In this document: positions 3,798-12,765 of the stretch, piece after piece | Layout of the letters: every line of letters begins with the position of its first letter | Numbering within the stretch: position 1 is the first letter of the stretch | Origin: a bacterium | GTDB taxonomy: Bacteria; JAGOBX01 | Assembly (NCBI GenBank): GCA_029551925.1 | Contig: JAKPEO010000131.1 | Span: forward strand, 1-64,000 | Length of the DNA: 64,000 nt | Reading direction: 5' to 3' | The notes under the pieces: model-generated | What the model was told of the DNA's origin: nothing | The model's database searches: none | Seen by the model: only the letters and a program-made list of their open reading frames with translations | Translations under genes and position numbers: made by a program

Positions 3798-3837
3798 GTG
3801 GCTCGGCGATTAAAAAAATCGCCGAGCCATTTTTTTT
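3798..3837 (+). terminator. Strong intrinsic terminator after FN3 gene
   Basis: An 11-bp perfect stem, 3800-3810 pairing with 3818-3828 (GGCTCGGCGAT against its complement), has a 7-base A-rich loop and is extended by a T-A and a G-T pair. Seven T follow at 3831-3837. It ends transcription of the FN3 gene. Confidence 0.92.
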
Positions 3838-4040: not shown

Positions 4041-4127
4041 GTGTAAAATAAAAATGACACAAATGTAAAATTTGCGATTAAAATGTCCGGTGTAAAATAC
4101 AAACCGCAAATATAAAATTTGCGATTA
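4041..4127. repeat. Pair of imperfect ~40-bp direct repeats in the 3754-4260 gap
   Basis: 4041-4080 and 4090-4127 both begin GTGTAAAATA and end TAAAATTTGCGATTA, with a variable middle. They sit in the 507-base gap between the FN3 gene and the operon starting at 4261. The rest of that gap holds the terminator (3798), the GCAGAG motif (3933) and the promoter (4194). I see no open frame there. Confidence 0.6.
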
Positions 4128-4193
4128 ATATTCAACGCAATTTATTTGGAACAATTTTTGACTGCACTTTTTTTTGTTTTTTTGAAAAAGTAA

Positions 4194-4222
4194 TTGAAAA
4201 AAATATTTTATAGTAGTATAAT
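4194..4222 (+). promoter_or_regulatory. Sigma-70-type promoter of the sensory/PNPase-like operon
   Basis: A TTGAAA -35 at 4194-4199 and a perfect TATAAT -10 at 4217-4222 are separated by 17 bases. They lie 38 bases upstream of the ATG at 4261, and an AGGCGG ribosome-binding site precedes that ATG. This is the only clear promoter before the five-gene run 4261-12765. Confidence 0.75.
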
Positions 4223-4260: not shown

Positions 4261-5199
4261 ATGAAAAAAAAATTTTTTTTGGTATTATTGATTTTTTTTG
4301 TGATGACATTTATCGGGTGTTCAAAAAGCAGCGAAGATAAACAAGAATTGTCAACTGAAATAAAATCGGAGCAGACGCTTCAAAAATCAGAAAATGATAC
4401 TAAAGTTGCAACATTAGACAGATTGACATTTGCAATTGTACCGTCCAGCAATCCGGTGAATTTTTATGAAAAAATTAAGCCATTAGTAACTTATTTAGAA
4501 AAAAAAATCGAACGAAAAATAATTGTGAAATTTGAAGTAAATTATGAAAATATAGCAAAGAGTTTGGGAGAAGATTATGATTTTGCGATGATGGGCGCAT
4601 ATTCATATATCGAAGCAAATAAATTGAACGGAGCAGAAGCAATTGTTAAATCTATAAGACAGGGCAAGCCGCACTATAATGCTTTGATAGTAGCGCATAT
4701 GTCAAGCGGCTTAAAAAATATAAAAGATTTAAAAAATTATAATAATTTAAAGTATGGATTTACTGATAAATTTGCGAGTGCCGGTTTTTTATTTCCTGCT
4801 GCTGAATTAATTAAAGCTGGCGTAGATTTTTCAAAAGCAAATTATAAATTTATTAAGGGCTATGATAATGTCTTAAAATCCTTAATTTTAAAATCAATAG
4901 ATATAGGCGTATGCTATTCTGGCGCGATTGAACAATATTTAACGCAAGACGAAATAAAAAATATAGTGGTTTTAAAAACAACTGATGCAATACCAGCCGA
5001 TCCTATTGTAATAAGTAAAAAAGTTGCTGAAGACAAAGAACTGAAATCTAAATTAACTGCCGCATTTTTAGATTTAAAAGATACTAATATCTTATCTGCG
5101 CTCGCCGCTGGACTTGACGGTTATGCTGCAGCATCAGATAAAGACTATAATGTTCTCCGCGAAAAAATAAACATAGTCAATAAGCATTTTAAATTTTAA
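4261..5199 (+). CDS. PhnD-like substrate-binding lipoprotein (phosphate/phosphonate-binding family)
   Basis: 312 residues. The signal peptide ends in a lipobox, I-G-C with the lipidated Cys at 20, followed by a charged low-complexity linker to about residue 55. The rest is a periplasmic-binding fold of the PhnD/DUF3359 type: LTFAIVPSSNP start, YDFAMMGAYSYIEA, an LKNIKDLK segment and SASAGFLFPA-like ligand loop (here FASAGFLFPAAEL). In this family the ligand is phosphonate, phosphate or phosphite, but several members act as sensory inputs instead of transporters. No ABC permease or ATPase is nearby. The stop is only 5 bases before a histidine kinase, so a sensing role is inferred. The ligand is unknown. 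Confidence 0.85.
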   Translation: MKKKFFLVLLIFFVMTFIGCSKSSEDKQELSTEIKSEQTLQKSENDTKVATLDRLTFAIVPSSNPVNFYEKIKPLVTYLEKKIERKIIVKFEVNYENIAKSLGEDYDFAMMGAYSYIEANKLNGAEAIVKSIRQGKPHYNALIVAHMSSGLKNIKDLKNYNNLKYGFTDKFASAGFLFPAAELIKAGVDFSKANYKFIKGYDNVLKSLILKSIDIGVCYSGAIEQYLTQDEIKNIVVLKTTDAIPADPIVISKKVAEDKELKSKLTAAFLDLKDTNILSALAAGLDGYAAASDKDYNVLREKINIVNKHFKF

Positions 5200-5204
5200 A
5201 TAGT

Positions 5205-7289
5205 ATGGCATTTCTCTCATTAAAAAATAAATTTAATTTTAATCGCGAGTTAAGCGGATTATTTATTTTTTTGTTTTTATTTATACTTGTTTTAATTTTA
5301 TTTATTTTTCTTTCAATATACACAAATTTACCTAATCATTATTTTTATGTGTTTTTTATAATAGCGCTGCTCTTTTTTATTATAGATCCTTTTATAAAAT
5401 CGCATCTTCCATCATTTAAAGCGAATTTGTTATTACTTGAAATTTATATTTTTTTTGTGCATTTTGCAATAGTCTTGTCAGGCGAGAGCAATTCAATATT
5501 TTTCTTTTTGTATGTAATTCCAATTATTTCAGCTGCGATGACTTTTGGGATCCGCGGCAGCGTGTTGACTACGATATTTATATTTATAATTTATAATTTG
5601 AATGAGACCTATACGAGCACGAGTCGCGCATTTTTTGGTCCGCAGATGCAGGAAGATCTGCCGAAATTTATTGCTTTGTTGATTATCGGTATAATGCTTG
5701 GTTTTTCAAGCGAAGAAAATCGCAAAGCTGAATTTAGAGCATTTGAGCGCGTATCGAAAATCTTGACATTAAATGAAATAAGAAATAGTTTGACATTAGA
5801 AACCAATGCGGTAAGTTTGATAAAACTAATTTCTAATTCAATTATGAAATTATTGAATTGCGATGCGGTATGCAGCGTTTTATTAAATATTAAAGAAAAT
5901 TTGGTTAGCGAAAAATTTGAAAATAATTTGCAATTATCTTTTTTTACAAATGATGCGCTGCAATTTGAAGACCAGCCGCGATTAATATCTAAAAAAGACA
6001 GGCATTTAATTCATAATGCTAATAGTTTAAAATTTTTCAATGTTATAAAATTATCTTTGAAAGTAGATTACGACAAATATTTAATTATTTTTTTAACAAG
6101 AAAAAAAGAACGAGTTTTATTATCGCCGAGCGATTTGGAACTCACAAAATCATTGAAAATATATCTTGATTTATTATTAAAAAATCAAATGCTTTACAAA
6201 CAGATACAGCAAATCAAAGATGATTTATTTTTAACATTTAAAAATTTGCCGATAGGTATAATAATACTTAATAATGAAATGTTTATTAAATCTGTGAATA
6301 CTCAAGCATTATTGTTATTGAAATATAATGACGAAAAAGAATTAATAGGCAAGCAATTAGGCGGCGCAATCTATATTTTTCCTGATTTGAAGATTTATGA
6401 AAAGATACGAAAAGGCGAATATTTACTATTTCATAAAACGCAATTATCGTCAAAAACATTAGAAATAAAACAAATAGAGTTGACTATTACACCGCTGAAA
6501 GACGAATATAATAATGTAATTGGAAGAATATTATCTTTTAATGATATAACTGAATTGAAAGAATTAGAAGAAGAATTGCAGCGGCGCGATAAATTAGCGG
6601 CATTAGGGCAAATGACTGCCGGATTAGCGCATGAATTCCGTAATCCATTAGCTATCATAGAAGGATTTGCGTCATTATTGCAAAAAGATTTAGCAACAGA
6701 CCCGGAAAAATATAAACTTGCTTCAAAACTTGTAGAAGGCGTGAACGATTTGAATCGTATAGTATCAGAATTTTTGAATTTTACGAATAAAATACAACTT
6801 GCGCCAGAAGCCAGAAATATCATAGATACAATTGATAGATCATTGTTATTTATTCGTAAAATGATAGAAGATAATAAGATCGAACTCATTAAAAATTATA
6901 ATAATTTTACAAAAGTAATAATTGAATATGATGAAAACAAAATAAAGCAAGTATTACTTAATATTTTATTAAATGCGATTGATGCATTATCGGAAATTAC
7001 TGCTCCGCAAATTGTTATAAGTTTGCGGCTGAAAGATGATTACCTTGCGAATACTTCGCTATTTTGCATAGATATTTTTAATAACGGCGGAAATATAGAT
7101 GAAACCATAAAAAATAATATATTCAATCCATTTTTTACTACCAAACCGAGCGGTATTGGCTTGGGTTTGACTATTTCACAAAAGATAGTCAATGAACACA
7201 ATGGCAAATTATATTTTAAAAATGAAAAAAATGGTGTAAAGTTTACTATCGAACTGCCAGTCGATAAGAGGTTTGTTTATAAATCATAA
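5205..7289 (+). CDS. Membrane sensor histidine kinase with PAS domain
   Basis: 694 residues. An N-terminal block of about six hydrophobic helices (to residue ~170) is followed by a GAF-like region, a PAS-like domain (LKNLPIGIIILNNEM) and a complete kinase core. The H-box is GLAHEFRNP with phospho-acceptor H476, the N-box contains N590 (LLNAID), and an FFTTKPSGIGLGL segment carries the G2 box at 650-655. All catalytic motifs are intact. The gene follows the PhnD-like lipoprotein by 5 bases, the usual arrangement for a binding protein feeding a membrane kinase. No response regulator is encoded next to it, so the phosphate acceptor is unknown. It is the second gene of the 4261-12765 unit. Confidence 0.92.
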   Translation: MAFLSLKNKFNFNRELSGLFIFLFLFILVLILFIFLSIYTNLPNHYFYVFFIIALLFFIIDPFIKSHLPSFKANLLLLEIYIFFVHFAIVLSGESNSIFFFLYVIPIISAAMTFGIRGSVLTTIFIFIIYNLNETYTSTSRAFFGPQMQEDLPKFIALLIIGIMLGFSSEENRKAEFRAFERVSKILTLNEIRNSLTLETNAVSLIKLISNSIMKLLNCDAVCSVLLNIKENLVSEKFENNLQLSFFTNDALQFEDQPRLISKKDRHLIHNANSLKFFNVIKLSLKVDYDKYLIIFLTRKKERVLLSPSDLELTKSLKIYLDLLLKNQMLYKQIQQIKDDLFLTFKNLPIGIIILNNEMFIKSVNTQALLLLKYNDEKELIGKQLGGAIYIFPDLKIYEKIRKGEYLLFHKTQLSSKTLEIKQIELTITPLKDEYNNVIGRILSFNDITELKELEEELQRRDKLAALGQMTAGLAHEFRNPLAIIEGFASLLQKDLATDPEKYKLASKLVEGVNDLNRIVSEFLNFTNKIQLAPEARNIIDTIDRSLLFIRKMIEDNKIELIKNYNNFTKVIIEYDENKIKQVLLNILLNAIDALSEITAPQIVISLRLKDDYLANTSLFCIDIFNNGGNIDETIKNNIFNPFFTTKPSGIGLGLTISQKIVNEHNGKLYFKNEKNGVKFTIELPVDKRFVYKS

Positions 7290-7320
7290 ATTTAATTAAA
7301 TATCATTTAGGTTGATTGCG

Positions 7321-8802
7321 ATGGGCTGTAAAAAGATTTTTGAAGATAGAAATATTTTTTCTGATAAACTTGAAATAGAAATATTTGATGAACTATTGAC
7401 GGAATTAGGAATAATGTTAAAATGCGGAAAAACTGTGGTTTTGGCATTTATAAATTTTGTAAAACTAACAAATCAAGATTATAATATTATCTATAAAGAG
7501 CGTTATTCTGCGGCAGGTATAATGCCAGTGCAATTTGCGATTCAAGACGATTATTCAAAACAGAAAAACGAGTATCTTGCCGAAATTATAAAAATGCAGT
7601 TAAAACCATTTTTAATTTTTAATCATCAAACATTTGAAATAACTATATTAGTGGAATCCATTTCTGCAGATTTTCCTGCGTCGATACTTGCAATGAATGC
7701 CGCTGCGATATTGTGCTATATCTGCGAATTGATGAAAGATTGTTATATAGCCTTTAATATTCATATACTTGACGAGCAGCCCGCACGATTGAATAATAAA
7801 TTTGATATGTTAGCGCAAGCGCAAATAAATTTGTGCGTCGGAATGGATAATAAAATTTCATTTTTGAAATTGCGAAAATTAAAAAAAATAAAAAGATTAT
7901 CCGATATGATTTTTCAAAGTTTCGATAATAAATTTTGCGAATATTTTAAAATGCTGGAAGAATTGAAAAATCATATTAGCAGATATTGGTCATTAAGAGG
8001 AAAATATCTGCATTCTGATAAATTCGAAAAACAAAGAAAAATAAAAATATGCTCGTACAAAAAGTTAGATATATCTAACAATTTAGAACTGATAAAAAAT
8101 GATAATGTTATAGTATGCAAATATATTGATTGTTATTCTGATGCTATTACAAGTATTACTGAGATTCCGTCGCCTTTAATTGAAGCACCGCGCAGCGAGC
8201 ATCATTATAAATTATCATCAAAAATTTCATATACTAAAACTCTTGAAAAATATTACAAACAGATAGTATCGCCGTCTGGCGTGCGCAATTTGAAAATATA
8301 TGCAATTATAAATACATTGCAAAATGACGATAAAAATATTATAGCGTCAAATAGTTTTTGCGAGCAGATAGTAGAGGATATAATTTCTACTATTGTCAGT
8401 GAAAAAATAAATGAATTTAATATTGTATTGAGAATAACCGCTGAATATTTTGGTTCTACAAATAACCTGATAATTTGCGCAATAATAAATTTTTTGAATA
8501 TATTAAGAGCGTATAAATTATCAGAAAAATTTGCCAAACTATTTGAAAATGATTTTTGGTGTCGCGAATATTATTATAATGCAGATTGCGGCATTACAGA
8601 AAAGACAGAAGAAAGCAGTTATTATTCGCTGTCGTGCGTTTCAAAAAAAAATTTGAATTTTTGTATTTTAACTGCGCTTACAGACCAGAGAATAGACATT
8701 AACGGATTGCAGAAAATTTTTGAAAATACAATAGACGATTTGATTAATGAAAAAAAGGATATTTATGAACAAATCAAAAATTCAAAATTGATATTTGATT
8801 AA
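7321..8802 (+). CDS. Highly divergent PNPase-like protein lacking KH and S1 domains (paralogue A)
   Basis: 493 residues from the ATG at 7321, which follows an AGG at 7309-7311; an in-frame TTG at 7312 is the alternative start. At first sight the protein is unknown, but its layout follows polynucleotide phosphorylase. GKTVVLAF (36-43), YKERYSAAGIMPVQF (58-72) and an FPASILAMNAAAIL stretch match the first RNase PH domain. EYFGS (375-379) followed by a hydrophobic helix matches the ESNGSSS phosphate-binding region of the second. No KH or S1 follows; the protein ends about where the PH core of PNPase ends. The segment that should carry the Asp/Lys metal ligands reads ILTALTDQRIDINGLQ and lacks the expected spacing. 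An inactive or structural role, perhaps pairing with the next protein, is inference. Confidence 0.6.
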   Translation: MGCKKIFEDRNIFSDKLEIEIFDELLTELGIMLKCGKTVVLAFINFVKLTNQDYNIIYKERYSAAGIMPVQFAIQDDYSKQKNEYLAEIIKMQLKPFLIFNHQTFEITILVESISADFPASILAMNAAAILCYICELMKDCYIAFNIHILDEQPARLNNKFDMLAQAQINLCVGMDNKISFLKLRKLKKIKRLSDMIFQSFDNKFCEYFKMLEELKNHISRYWSLRGKYLHSDKFEKQRKIKICSYKKLDISNNLELIKNDNVIVCKYIDCYSDAITSITEIPSPLIEAPRSEHHYKLSSKISYTKTLEKYYKQIVSPSGVRNLKIYAIINTLQNDDKNIIASNSFCEQIVEDIISTIVSEKINEFNIVLRITAEYFGSTNNLIICAIINFLNILRAYKLSEKFAKLFENDFWCREYYYNADCGITEKTEESSYYSLSCVSKKNLNFCILTALTDQRIDINGLQKIFENTIDDLINEKKDIYEQIKNSKLIFD

Positions 8803-8823
8803 TTTTTTTGGGAGAGCAGAGCA

Positions 8824-11004
8824 ATGGAAAATATTTTGGGATTATCTCGGAAAATAGACAATAAAAGTTTGGATATCATATTTTCTACAAAAAATTCCGC
8901 GACTGATTATTCAATAGAAGCGCGTTTCGGCAAGACAATAGTATGCTGCAATATGGTAATCGGTAAAACATTGGAATTGAGTTCAGTTAATACTAAGCCA
9001 ATGATAAGCGTGTATTATGCGGAACGTTATTATTCATTTGGAGTGATACCGACTAATTATTTTAAGCGCGAAGACAATAAATCGGCGCGCGAGATAAGAT
9101 TGAATGTTTTTTTTAATGATTGCGTAAACGCGGTATTTAGATATTTAATAAAAAATAATGTGTTTATTTCATTGATAGTGACCGCAGTAGAAGATGGCTA
9201 TTCGCCGGAATTTCCAGCGTCTATCGGCTTATCGCTGATGCTTGCGCTGCTGTCTAATTTTCAATCTCAACCATTTGCCGCTATTCGCATAGTTGATATA
9301 GAAGGCAAATATTTCAAAAATCCTGATTTTGACGCGATAAAATTCAGCAGATTAGATTTATTAGTCGCGGCTACTGAAAACGAACTCATTAATATAAATT
9401 CTTCGGCAGACGATGTATCAATTGTTTATTTATTAGGCGCGATAGGATATACTAAAACTTTTTTAGACGAGACGATAAAATTTCAAAAAGAATTTATCGA
9501 GTATTTAAAAGAAAATTTTAATATGGAGAACACTAATAAAAAAATAGAATTTATTTACAATGACGATAAAGCGATTGCAAAATTTAATGATAAATACAGC
9601 GCTGAAATAATAAAATTAGTAGAAACATTTGAAAACAACGCTATTTTTTCATTGGAAATAAATTCATTGGTAAAAAGAATAATAAATGAAAATATGGCTG
9701 ACAGCAAAAACATATTTCAGCCATTGCAGATAACATTTTTATTTTATGAATTAATGACAAAAATTTTAAAAGAGATTTTGATATGTCAACATAAACGACT
9801 TGACATCAGGCAATTTAATGAATTTCGAGAAATTACTTGCGAATTCGGGAAATTGCCGTCTGCGCACGGTTCGGGAATTTTTAGAATTGGCCACACTGCT
9901 GTAATGTCTGTAATAACTTTGTGTCCGCTGAATCAATCGTATTGGAATTTGAGCATAGAGGGTTTTCAGCGCCAGACGCTAATAAATAATATGTTTTTTC
10001 ATTATTTTAGCACTGGCGGTGTTAGTGCGAGCAGATTGGAAAAATTTGAAGAATATGCCAATATAGTATTAGATAAAATTATTCAGAGACCATTGCCGCC
10101 ACTTTCAACTTTGCCGTATGTTAAAAGAATAATCCACGAAATTTTATCAACTGAGGGCTCGACTTTGTCCGCGACTATCAATGCCGCGCATTTAGCATTG
10201 AAAGATGCTGGCGTGAAATTAAAATATGATTTTGCCGCAGCAGAAGGCGCAATATATTTTAATAATTCGGACGATTTTATTTTGCTTGCAGATATGACTG
10301 GCACTGAAAAATTATGCGCTGACGCTTTGATTAATTTAGTGGCGTCAGAAGACGGTATAATTGCGTTTAATTTCAAAGCGCAGAAATGCGGAGTAAAATT
10401 CGAGACATTAAACAAGATTATCGACCAGCAGCATAGTAATGTTTTGTATATAAAAAACAAAATAAATTCTGTAATTGCCAAACCGCGCGAGTCAATGCAT
10501 CCTAATGTTCAAGAAACAATGATATTTCATTTGAATCCTAATAAAATATACAATGTAGTAGGTCAAAACTCTGAATATCTTAATCAGATAAAACATAAGA
10601 CAAATTGCGATATTTTTATAGAAAACGATGGATTCGTAATTATTGTAAAGCGCGATAATTTTAGTAATTTAGCAGAAGCGAAAAGTTTACTTGTTGCGCG
10701 GGCAGTAGCGGCCGAAGCAACTTGTGATAGCGATATTTGTAAAGTTGATGCATCAAAAACTGAATATTCCGAAGGCGATATAGTTTCAGCGAGAGTAGTA
10801 AAACTTCTGCCGTTTGGAATATATGTAGAAACGGAATTTGGTGCGAAAGGACCGGTTTATTTATCAGAATTAGCAGACGGCAATCTTACGAAGCCGGAAG
10901 AATTTGTGAAATTAGGAGATATTATTAATGTCGTTATAACCGAGATAGATGGATTTAATTATAAATTCAGCCATCGAAAATTTTTGGAACAAAGTAATAA
11001 ATAA
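8824..11004 (+). CDS. PNPase-like protein with RNase PH x2, KH and S1; predicted catalytically dead (paralogue B)
   Basis: 726 residues, close to normal PNPase length. The first PH domain carries YYSFGVIPTNYFKRED (69-84), then an SRLDLLVAATE segment and the helical linker. The second PH domain begins near LPSAHGSGIFRIG and has STEGSTLS at 442-449 where PNPase has ESNGSSS. The metal site is gone: by eye, E. coli D486, D492 and K494 align with Lys, Leu and Asn in the stretch at 489-508. The KRREIGHG stretch is also replaced. A KH domain follows, with its GxxG loop degraded to GQNS at 580-583, then an S1 domain from about 647 (GDIVSARVVKLLPFGIYV). RNA binding through S1 is plausible, but phosphorolysis is not expected. 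It lies between paralogue A (21-base gap) and a diguanylate cyclase (3-base gap). Confidence 0.75.
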   Translation: MENILGLSRKIDNKSLDIIFSTKNSATDYSIEARFGKTIVCCNMVIGKTLELSSVNTKPMISVYYAERYYSFGVIPTNYFKREDNKSAREIRLNVFFNDCVNAVFRYLIKNNVFISLIVTAVEDGYSPEFPASIGLSLMLALLSNFQSQPFAAIRIVDIEGKYFKNPDFDAIKFSRLDLLVAATENELININSSADDVSIVYLLGAIGYTKTFLDETIKFQKEFIEYLKENFNMENTNKKIEFIYNDDKAIAKFNDKYSAEIIKLVETFENNAIFSLEINSLVKRIINENMADSKNIFQPLQITFLFYELMTKILKEILICQHKRLDIRQFNEFREITCEFGKLPSAHGSGIFRIGHTAVMSVITLCPLNQSYWNLSIEGFQRQTLINNMFFHYFSTGGVSASRLEKFEEYANIVLDKIIQRPLPPLSTLPYVKRIIHEILSTEGSTLSATINAAHLALKDAGVKLKYDFAAAEGAIYFNNSDDFILLADMTGTEKLCADALINLVASEDGIIAFNFKAQKCGVKFETLNKIIDQQHSNVLYIKNKINSVIAKPRESMHPNVQETMIFHLNPNKIYNVVGQNSEYLNQIKHKTNCDIFIENDGFVIIVKRDNFSNLAEAKSLLVARAVAAEATCDSDICKVDASKTEYSEGDIVSARVVKLLPFGIYVETEFGAKGPVYLSELADGNLTKPEEFVKLGDIINVVITEIDGFNYKFSHRKFLEQSNK

Positions 11005-11007
11005 CAA

Positions 11008-12765
11008 ATGAAAAAAATATTATCTAACAAAATACAAAAGAGCAGAAAACTTTATAAAAAAATATTATATTTTGTGATTTTTTTGTTTGGCTTTATTTTA
11101 TTTATTTTTTCAAGCGTAATATATATTCGCAATTTAGAGAGCGAAAATAATTATAAAAATAAATTATTAGAAAAAGACCGAACAATATTTGAATTTTATT
11201 TTAATGAATTTTTTAAAAATCTAAAATCCAAGAAAATAGAGCATTTTATAAACGATATATTTAAACGAAGCGAATATTTACATCATTTGATATATTATGA
11301 TATTGATTTTGCTGTTTTAAAATATTTTTCAAAAGATAATTTAAAAATAGATGATTTGCCAAAAGCGTCAAAAAGTCAAAAAAATTTTGATACTTATGTT
11401 AATACTATATTAGTATCAGTATATGTATTTCCAGTATATTTTGAAGATAAATTAATTGGTTATATACAGATAGGATATAATGCCGAATATTTTAAAAATA
11501 TTACAATAGATAATGTTAAGACGATTATTGTAGCAGTGCTGCTGACTTTGCTTTTTTTGATATTGTTAATTTCGCGTATGACGAATAAGATAATAGCGCC
11601 AATCAGGCAGATTGTTGATTCTGCCGAACAAGTTCGAAATGCCAAAAATATTCAAAAAATCGAAGAGATAAAAACAAATGACGAGATAGAAGAATTAGTG
11701 AAATCATTTAATTTTATCACAACAAATCTACAAGATAGAATTAGGGATTTGTCGGTTATTCAATCATTAGCATTAGAGATAAATTCGGAATTGGAAAAAG
11801 ATAGATTGCTGAATAAAATTGCAAAAATATTTGCAGATATAGGCAACTGCGAGTATTCTGCGGTATTGCTTTTAAATGAAAAAAAAAATGCACTGTCATT
11901 GGCTGCAGGATTGAATTTAATAAATCATAATTATAATGTTAAATTGAATGAAGGAGTTGCTGGCGCTGCGATATTTACTGGAAATTATAAATTGGTTAAT
12001 AATATTGCCCGCTATCCTGATTATTTGATGTTTTATCATCCTGACGAATTGAAAAAAAGCAAAGACAAAGAATTATTGGCTTTGCCATTAGCGGTAAAAG
12101 ATGAAGTTATAGGCGCTGTATGTCTTGCTGCGCGAAAGCAAAATAAAAAAATTGAAAATTATGAAATAATATTTTTTCAAACTATCGCTAATTCTGCTGC
12201 GATAGCAATTGAAAATGCAAATTTATATGAGTTAGCAATAACTGATGGTTTGACAAAACTGTATATACATCGCTATTTTCAGATGAAATTAGACGAAGAA
12301 ATAAATTATCTTACAGCAGAAGAAAAATCGTTGTGTTTGATAATGCTTGATATTGATTATTTTAAAAAGTTGAATGATACTTATGGTCATCAGCAAGGCG
12401 ATATTGTTTTGAAAAAAGTCGCAGAATTATTAAAAAAATCAGTAAGAATAGCAGATGTCCATAAAATTATGCGTCGCGCAGATACAGTCGCGCGTTACGG
12501 CGGTGAAGAATTTGCGATTATTTTACCCGACACTAATTATAAAGGAGCAGCTATTGTAGCAGAACGGATTAGACATATAATTCAAGAATATGAATTTCCG
12601 AGCGCAGATAAACCGCTGCGAATTACAGTGAGTTTAGGTATAGCCGAATACGACCAAAAAATGACAAAAAGCGAATTTATTGAGGCGGCAGATAAAGCAT
12701 TGTATTATTCTAAAAAAACCGGGCGTAATAAAATTACGCTTTATAAGGATATTGTATCAAAATAA
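11008..12765 (+). CDS. Membrane diguanylate cyclase (TM sensor, HAMP, GAF, GGDEF)
   Basis: 585 residues. Transmembrane helices near 18-38 and 165-190 flank an extracytoplasmic sensor of about 125 residues. A HAMP-like segment, a GAF domain (VIQSLALEINSELE onward) and a GGDEF domain follow. The active site is GGEEF at 498-502, and the metal-binding DIDYFKKLNDTYGH motif is intact. An RxxD inhibitory site (R489 to D492) lies five residues before it, so product inhibition by c-di-GMP is expected. No EAL or HD-GYP partner is present. It starts 3 bases after the PNPase-like gene, so the two are surely co-transcribed. E. coli PNPase is known to respond to c-di-GMP, which makes the pairing notable. 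Confidence 0.9.
   Translation: MKKILSNKIQKSRKLYKKILYFVIFLFGFILFIFSSVIYIRNLESENNYKNKLLEKDRTIFEFYFNEFFKNLKSKKIEHFINDIFKRSEYLHHLIYYDIDFAVLKYFSKDNLKIDDLPKASKSQKNFDTYVNTILVSVYVFPVYFEDKLIGYIQIGYNAEYFKNITIDNVKTIIVAVLLTLLFLILLISRMTNKIIAPIRQIVDSAEQVRNAKNIQKIEEIKTNDEIEELVKSFNFITTNLQDRIRDLSVIQSLALEINSELEKDRLLNKIAKIFADIGNCEYSAVLLLNEKKNALSLAAGLNLINHNYNVKLNEGVAGAAIFTGNYKLVNNIARYPDYLMFYHPDELKKSKDKELLALPLAVKDEVIGAVCLAARKQNKKIENYEIIFFQTIANSAAIAIENANLYELAITDGLTKLYIHRYFQMKLDEEINYLTAEEKSLCLIMLDIDYFKKLNDTYGHQQGDIVLKKVAELLKKSVRIADVHKIMRRADTVARYGGEEFAIILPDTNYKGAAIVAERIRHIIQEYEFPSADKPLRITVSLGIAEYDQKMTKSEFIEAADKALYYSKKTGRNKITLYKDIVSK

Follow-up and report, generated by a model that had tools for sequence, protein, structure and literature searches.

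A five-gene unit of a lipoprotein, a PilS-like sensor kinase, two diverged PNPase relatives and a diguanylate cyclase in two bacterial genomes

Gene content and conservation of the unit

Five open reading frames, all on the + strand, occupy positions 4261-12765 of the window (the whole 64,000-nucleotide stretch of DNA that was analysed). The genes, here called P1, HK, A, B and DGC, and the features that precede them are:

3798-3830, + strand: intrinsic terminator of the preceding gene, a 14-pair stem with a T run; upstream boundary of the unit
4194-4222, + strand: promoter-like site TTGAAA-17-TATAAT, with 11 of 12 consensus matches
4261-5199, + strand: P1, PhnD-like binding lipoprotein with a FIGC lipobox, 312 aa
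5205-7289, + strand: HK, multi-TM sensor kinase with a PilS-like sensor region, 694 aa
7321 (ATG)-8802, + strand: A, degenerate RNase PH protein without KH and S1 domains, 493 aa; the listed open reading frame starts at TTG 7312
8824-11004, + strand: B, full-length PNPase homologue, predicted to be catalytically dead by residue loss, 726 aa
11008-12765, + strand: DGC, diguanylate cyclase, 585 aa

The gaps of 5, 31, 21 and 3 bases originally reported between these same-strand genes are reproduced if A begins at ATG 7321. The bases just 5' of this codon overlap the end of HK, where the two copies of the unit encode the same amino acids. ATG 7321 is the likelier start, as this overlap probably explains the apparent upstream conservation. 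The promoter-like site matches the consensus well, but the “one clear promoter” first claimed is better called suggestive, since promoter-like matches are common by chance in this AT-rich region (113 found versus ~71 expected). Some 70-130 bases 5' of the site, at 4066-4130, there is a repeat of TAAAATTTGCGATTAA with inverted CGCAAAT/ATTTGCG, possibly a regulator site or an old repeat. Neither the window nor the second copy contains a match to any Rfam family, known c-di-GMP riboswitches included; a riboswitch of this kind in the leader was rejected on that basis.

The window belongs to a 2.96 Mb genome that is 86% complete (G000), and one relative in the phylum (G001) was compared. From kinship assignment and a name match, we infer membership in GTDB phylum JAGOBX01, ‘Candidatus Honifiota’, for which one genome, from wastewater, has been listed (3.83 Mb, 30.2% GC; PMC11382960). 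All five genes recur in G001 with order and strand unchanged (L040, 486-9304); there, the ends of P1 and HK and of B and DGC overlap. Identities between the two copies are 47% for P1, 59% for HK, 30-32% for A, 44% for B and 43-44% for DGC, compared with 73% for the canonical PNPases of the same genomes.

Downstream of the G001 unit are thiE-like, DivIVA-like, DUF167-like, PP2C-like and aroA-like genes (named by eye), none of which has a match anywhere in the window. Upstream, comparison is limited to the 485 bases between P1 and the end of the G001 contig. Because the downstream flanks differ, the linkage of the five genes has outlived the gene order downstream of it, and an arrangement kept in content, order and strand under these circumstances is more than chance. 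The gene order thus proved to be conserved, in two genomes of one family. As first described, the unit has no response regulator, and this is true of both copies. Neither a phosphodiesterase nor an RNase E-like scaffold is encoded in the five genes.

Two PNPase relatives, one of them stripped of its catalytic residues

B matches the PNPase model with E 1.9e-91 over residues 13-710 and PNPase structures with E 6e-60, and aligns end to end with PNPases. Its domain order (two RNase PH domains, a helical domain, KH and S1) is that of PNPase. The regions most informative about its function are:

9058-9069, + strand: channel-aperture loop, retained as YFKR (FHKR in G001), equivalent to FFRR of E. 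coli
10306-10335, + strand: decayed metal site, EKLCADALIN for canonical EDHLGDMDFK (D486 replaced by K, D492 by L, K494 by N; D490 kept)
10501-10713, + strand: KH domain with its GXXG loop lost, GQNS (window) and GRNF (G001) for GPGG
10759-11001, + strand: S1 domain (PF00575, E 1.5e-6)

Both B copies have lost seven residues that are invariant in 33 canonical PNPases: R398, R399, H403, S439, D486, D492 and K494 (E. coli numbering). In the phosphate-site SSS, S437 is lost in one copy and S438 is Thr in both, as in 3 of the 33 canonical PNPases. D490 is retained in both copies. Also missing is the DRPLRPLFP motif, which holds further RNA-binding arginines. In E. coli PNPase, D486, D492 and K494 hold the metal, D492G abolishes activity, and the FFRR aperture loop contacts RNA (PMC2723993); the remaining catalytic and phosphate sites are listed in PMC5416783. 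By loss of catalytic residues, B appears incapable of phosphorolysis. The two B proteins keep open frames and 44% identity over 731 aa and, judging from these sequences, B is under constraint though inactive. S1 is its most conserved domain, with 69% identity between the copies versus 28-45% for the other domains. Even so, the usual His of LVHISEL is Tyr in B, and the GR near the end of S1 is changed. Structure prediction for B from two alignment rows was uninformative (pLDDT 33). Origin of B by recent duplication of a canonical PNPase is not supported; B forms a very long branch that is separate from every other sequence, in a placement that is unsure.

A is more decayed than B and has no recognisable active site. 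It matches the RNase_PH family weakly (E 0.019) and the PNPase model with E 1.7e-6, and a profile of the A pair matches PDB PNPase with E 8.8e-9. Profile-profile comparison (hhalign) relates A to PNPases with a probability of 98.2%. In a low-confidence model (pLDDT 38), residues 2-230 superpose on PNPase domain 1 with Z 13.7 and an rmsd of 4.8 Å over 190 residues, a match that is not independent because the underlying alignment contained B rows. The model is too poor to show a second RNase PH domain; G001 A aligns weakly with window B along its full length (20.5% identity over 566 aa, E 3e-5). The protein ends where the PNPase core ends, so that KH and S1 are absent, and it retains no basic residues of the aperture loop. 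A is probably without activity. It is neither an artefact nor a fragment split from B, as A and B are separate open genes in both genomes.

Kinship of both proteins with RNase PH and PNPase, as originally proposed, is borne out, for B by the PNPase model and for A by the hhalign and PDB profile matches. The RNase PH fold is likewise found in both, for A in the first RNase PH domain. The further description of the pair as catalytically silent RNA binders fares unevenly. Silence holds for B, with residues lost in both copies, and is probable for A; RNA binding is a weaker case than was claimed, as B's KH loop is lost in both genomes, but S1 and the aperture loop remain.

Both genomes encode four PNPase relatives: A, B, a normal PNPase and a third, KH/S1-less PNPase with an intact catalytic site. 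The presence of the normal enzyme in each genome excludes A or B as the sole PNPase, and the two are thus not replacing the housekeeping enzyme. B is 22-24% identical to either active copy. The third copy (L036, 8746-10383, - strand; L037, 3615-4742, - strand) consists of two RNase PH domains whose catalytic residues are intact, and is followed in both genomes by a small gene of 116-120 aa with one apparent membrane helix.

The 386 bacterial genomes searched outside the phylum yielded no A-B pair among the matches listed for the A profile; all the listed matches cover the first domain of PNPase-length frames. Outside the phylum, B-profile matches above E 1e-72 are three ordinary-length PNPases, which score 244-259 bits versus 1431-1485 for B and have the canonical catalytic motif. 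A low-sensitivity scan of genome_contigs detected neither the five-gene set nor an A-B pair elsewhere, and viral_contigs, scanned for further PNPases to add to the alignment, yielded none. Second PNPase-like genes are few in other genomes, and several are probably split genes, in a tally that scored two candidates per genome and is not a census. We found no account in the open literature of a PNPase pseudoenzyme in a histidine kinase operon. The claim that no described system has this gene set is thus sustained for the set as a whole across the 386 genomes and genome_contigs, but not for its lipoprotein-kinase pair, which is not peculiar to these genomes.

The sensor pair and the cyclase

P1 is a PhnD-like protein (PF12974, E 3.5e-45) that groups with PtxB, ArrX and PhnD; PtxB (E 4e-16) and ArrX (E 1e-14) are its PDB relatives. 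AioX, a PhnD-like protein in co-receptor use, has Cys106 and an oxyanion pocket of Y88, Y131, S161, S163 and H192 (PMC5908839). By alignment reading, the Cys106 position is Gly in both P1 copies. G001 P1 keeps all five pocket residues; window P1 keeps both Tyr, and has A, A and Y in place of S161, S163 and H192. As window P1 is without the pocket Ser, Ser and His, the ligand may differ between the two genomes. Other PhnD-like proteins of G000 and G001 are encoded next to chemoreceptors, an HPt protein and another HK, and a co-receptor role for P1 fits these associations. In both Honifiota genomes a PhnD-like protein is encoded directly beside a methyl-accepting chemotaxis protein (L080, 4328-7785; L081, 398-3813), and in both a PhnD-like protein, an ABC-type binding protein and a TonB-type receptor occur in a row (L082, 4185-8433; L083, 439-4680). 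At L078, a PhnD-like protein stands beside a HAMP-HPt protein.

HK consists of a multi-TM sensor (residues 12-170), PAS, HisKA and HATPase_c. A profile of its TM/GAF-like region finds matching kinases in five genomes of other phyla (E 1e-17 to 6e-36), two of which (G069 and G210) belong to one phylum. A pilC gene, an NtrC-type regulator or both are adjacent in all five, and a PhnD-like lipoprotein is adjacent in three. Neighbours were typed by Pfam for the proteins of L101, L103 and L104, and by sequence reading for the others:

L100: pilC, HK
L101: pilC, HK, NtrC-type regulator
L102: PhnD-like lipoprotein, HK, NtrC-type regulator (short contig)
L103 and L104: pilC, PhnD-like lipoprotein, HK, NtrC-type regulator

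The row of PhnD-like lipoprotein, PilS-like HK and NtrC-type regulator (L102, 125-4414; L103, 6190-12342; L104, 3588-9726) may represent a pilus regulatory system assisted by a binding protein; it occurs in three genomes from two small phyla. We found no description of this row in open papers. The Honifiota genomes have pilB-pilB-pilT-pilC on other contigs (G000:C93 and G001:C46), without the PhnD-HK pair.

HK keeps its phospho-accepting His, and the ATP-binding G1 box in its HATPase_c part reads FNNGGN for DNGxG (HK at 5205-7289 of the window; L040, 1424-3511). The related kinases of other phyla keep the G1-box Asp that both Honifiota copies lack, so that HK is best regarded as a putative kinase. 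The simplest history may be that a PhnD and PilS-like pair left its regulator and joined A, B and DGC. The lipoprotein-kinase sensor originally proposed is thus supported as to its two protein families, but is not special to this unit, as homologous kinases stand beside pilC or NtrC genes and three of the five have a PhnD-like neighbour. The sensor half appears to be of a known kind, and novelty seems confined to A, B and DGC standing where a response regulator would be.

The last gene encodes the membrane GGDEF enzyme that had been predicted, with TM segments and an intact GGEEF motif at residue 498 (PF00990, E 2.6e-45). Its architecture is TM-periplasmic-TM-HAMP-GAF-GGDEF, the RxxD inhibitory site is RRAD, and active- and I-site motifs are present in both copies. 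A c-di-GMP link to A and B is plausible from adjacency and by analogy with E. coli, where a cyclase works in complex with c-di-GMP-binding PNPase (PMC5635695, PMC8846402), a precedent that does not carry over by itself.

What the unit may do

We suggest that the five genes form an envelope-to-cytoplasm signalling unit in which a sensor and c-di-GMP control an A-B ring that holds RNA without degrading it, and give this reading a probability of roughly 0.4. P1 and the PilS-like membrane kinase, assigned by homology, would form the sensor, and the diverged pair and the cyclase would occupy the place of the NtrC-type regulator. Homology, adjacency and co-conservation suggest that A and B join in a PNPase-like ring or mixed trimer, which may grip RNA through the S1 domain and aperture loop of B, with no degradation. 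DGC, its motifs intact, would make c-di-GMP beside the ring, and the ligand state at P1 and HK, together with DGC's own periplasmic domain, would set RNA holding by the ring. The whole would be a riboregulator comparable to the DosC/DosP-PNPase complex of E. coli, except that its PNPase would be dead. The non-cutting, RNA-holding function is suggested by the lost catalytic residues of B, its basic aperture loop and the conservation of S1. It is weakened by the lost GXXG loop of B, the missing aperture basics of A, and the His to Tyr and GR changes in S1. Also counting against the main reading are the lack of a phosphodiesterase and an RNase E-like scaffold among the five genes, the poor structure models of A and B and, as the chief limit, the narrow base of two genomes from a single family. 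The proposal that a dead exosome-like PNPase ring has replaced the regulator, so that ligand and c-di-GMP directly control RNA capture with neither transcriptional output nor cleavage, is rather doubtful.

The same losses from B could mean that A and B have no RNA role, and are pure protein scaffolds or small-molecule receptors tethering the kinase and the cyclase. Disappearance of the KH loop and the active-site arginines, and the very degenerate state of A, would fit such a function, which we consider unlikely given that the best conserved domain of B is S1 and that the aperture loop is kept. We think it similarly improbable that B, together with A, enters mixed trimers with the canonical or the KH/S1-less PNPase, where it would act as a dominant-negative or modulating subunit and tune RNA decay in line with the signal. 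Two catalytically intact PNPases are available for this in each genome, and the archaeal exosome mixes active and inactive RNase PH subunits (Rrp41 is active and Rrp42 inactive). However, the low identity of B to the active copies makes shared interfaces doubtful, and its adjacency to A points to A as its partner.

A different kind of account treats the genes as co-transcribed but with independent outputs: HK would signal to an NtrC-type regulator elsewhere, in the manner of PilS-PilR, the cyclase would raise c-di-GMP, and A-B would act separately. The homologous kinases that pair with adjacent NtrC regulators argue for this, as do 7 and 13 NtrC-type regulator matches elsewhere in the two genomes. 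We hold it to be quite unlikely, as neither copy of the unit is accompanied by a regulator and the G1 box of HK is altered in both.

Several known systems resemble parts of the unit. The E. coli oxydegradosome (DosC/DosP, or DgcO/PdeO, with PNPase and RNase E) also links a cyclase with a PNPase-family protein. That protein, however, is the active housekeeping PNPase, in a complex that senses through a haem globin and also includes a phosphodiesterase and RNase E; the present unit has two dedicated PNPase relatives, one plainly dead by its residues, in a cyclase operon with a lipoprotein and a kinase. PilS-PilR of type IV pilus loci has the homologous multi-TM sensor, PAS, HisKA and HATPase_c, and in three of the five loci above the PhnD-like lipoprotein is directly upstream. 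Unlike these, the unit has no adjacent NtrC-type regulator or pil genes, the latter being elsewhere in the genomes, and A, B and DGC come next. The arsenic sensors AioXSR and ArrXSR similarly place a PhnD-like protein beside a kinase as the first signalling component, but the AioX-specific Cys106 is Gly here, there is no regulator, and the remaining genes have no counterpart. Non-catalytic RNase PH subunits and paired unequal subunits are also features of the archaeal and eukaryotic exosome ring (Rrp41/Rrp42; inactive Exo9), whereas the unit is bacterial, has PNPase-type fused double domains, lies in a signalling operon, and is only predicted to form a ring.

As far as we know, a single E. coli complex is essentially the only described case in which c-di-GMP controls RNA handling through PNPase. 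The unit would offer a way for an external ligand to act on RNA by means of c-di-GMP, and in it a PilS-like sensor stands apart from its regulator. A dead PNPase pair would give bacteria a counterpart of the eukaryotic exosome with its inactive RNase PH ring, and an operon with a PNPase relative shorn of catalysis, S1 kept, would separate the RNA-binding from the RNA-degrading roles of PNPase in nature.
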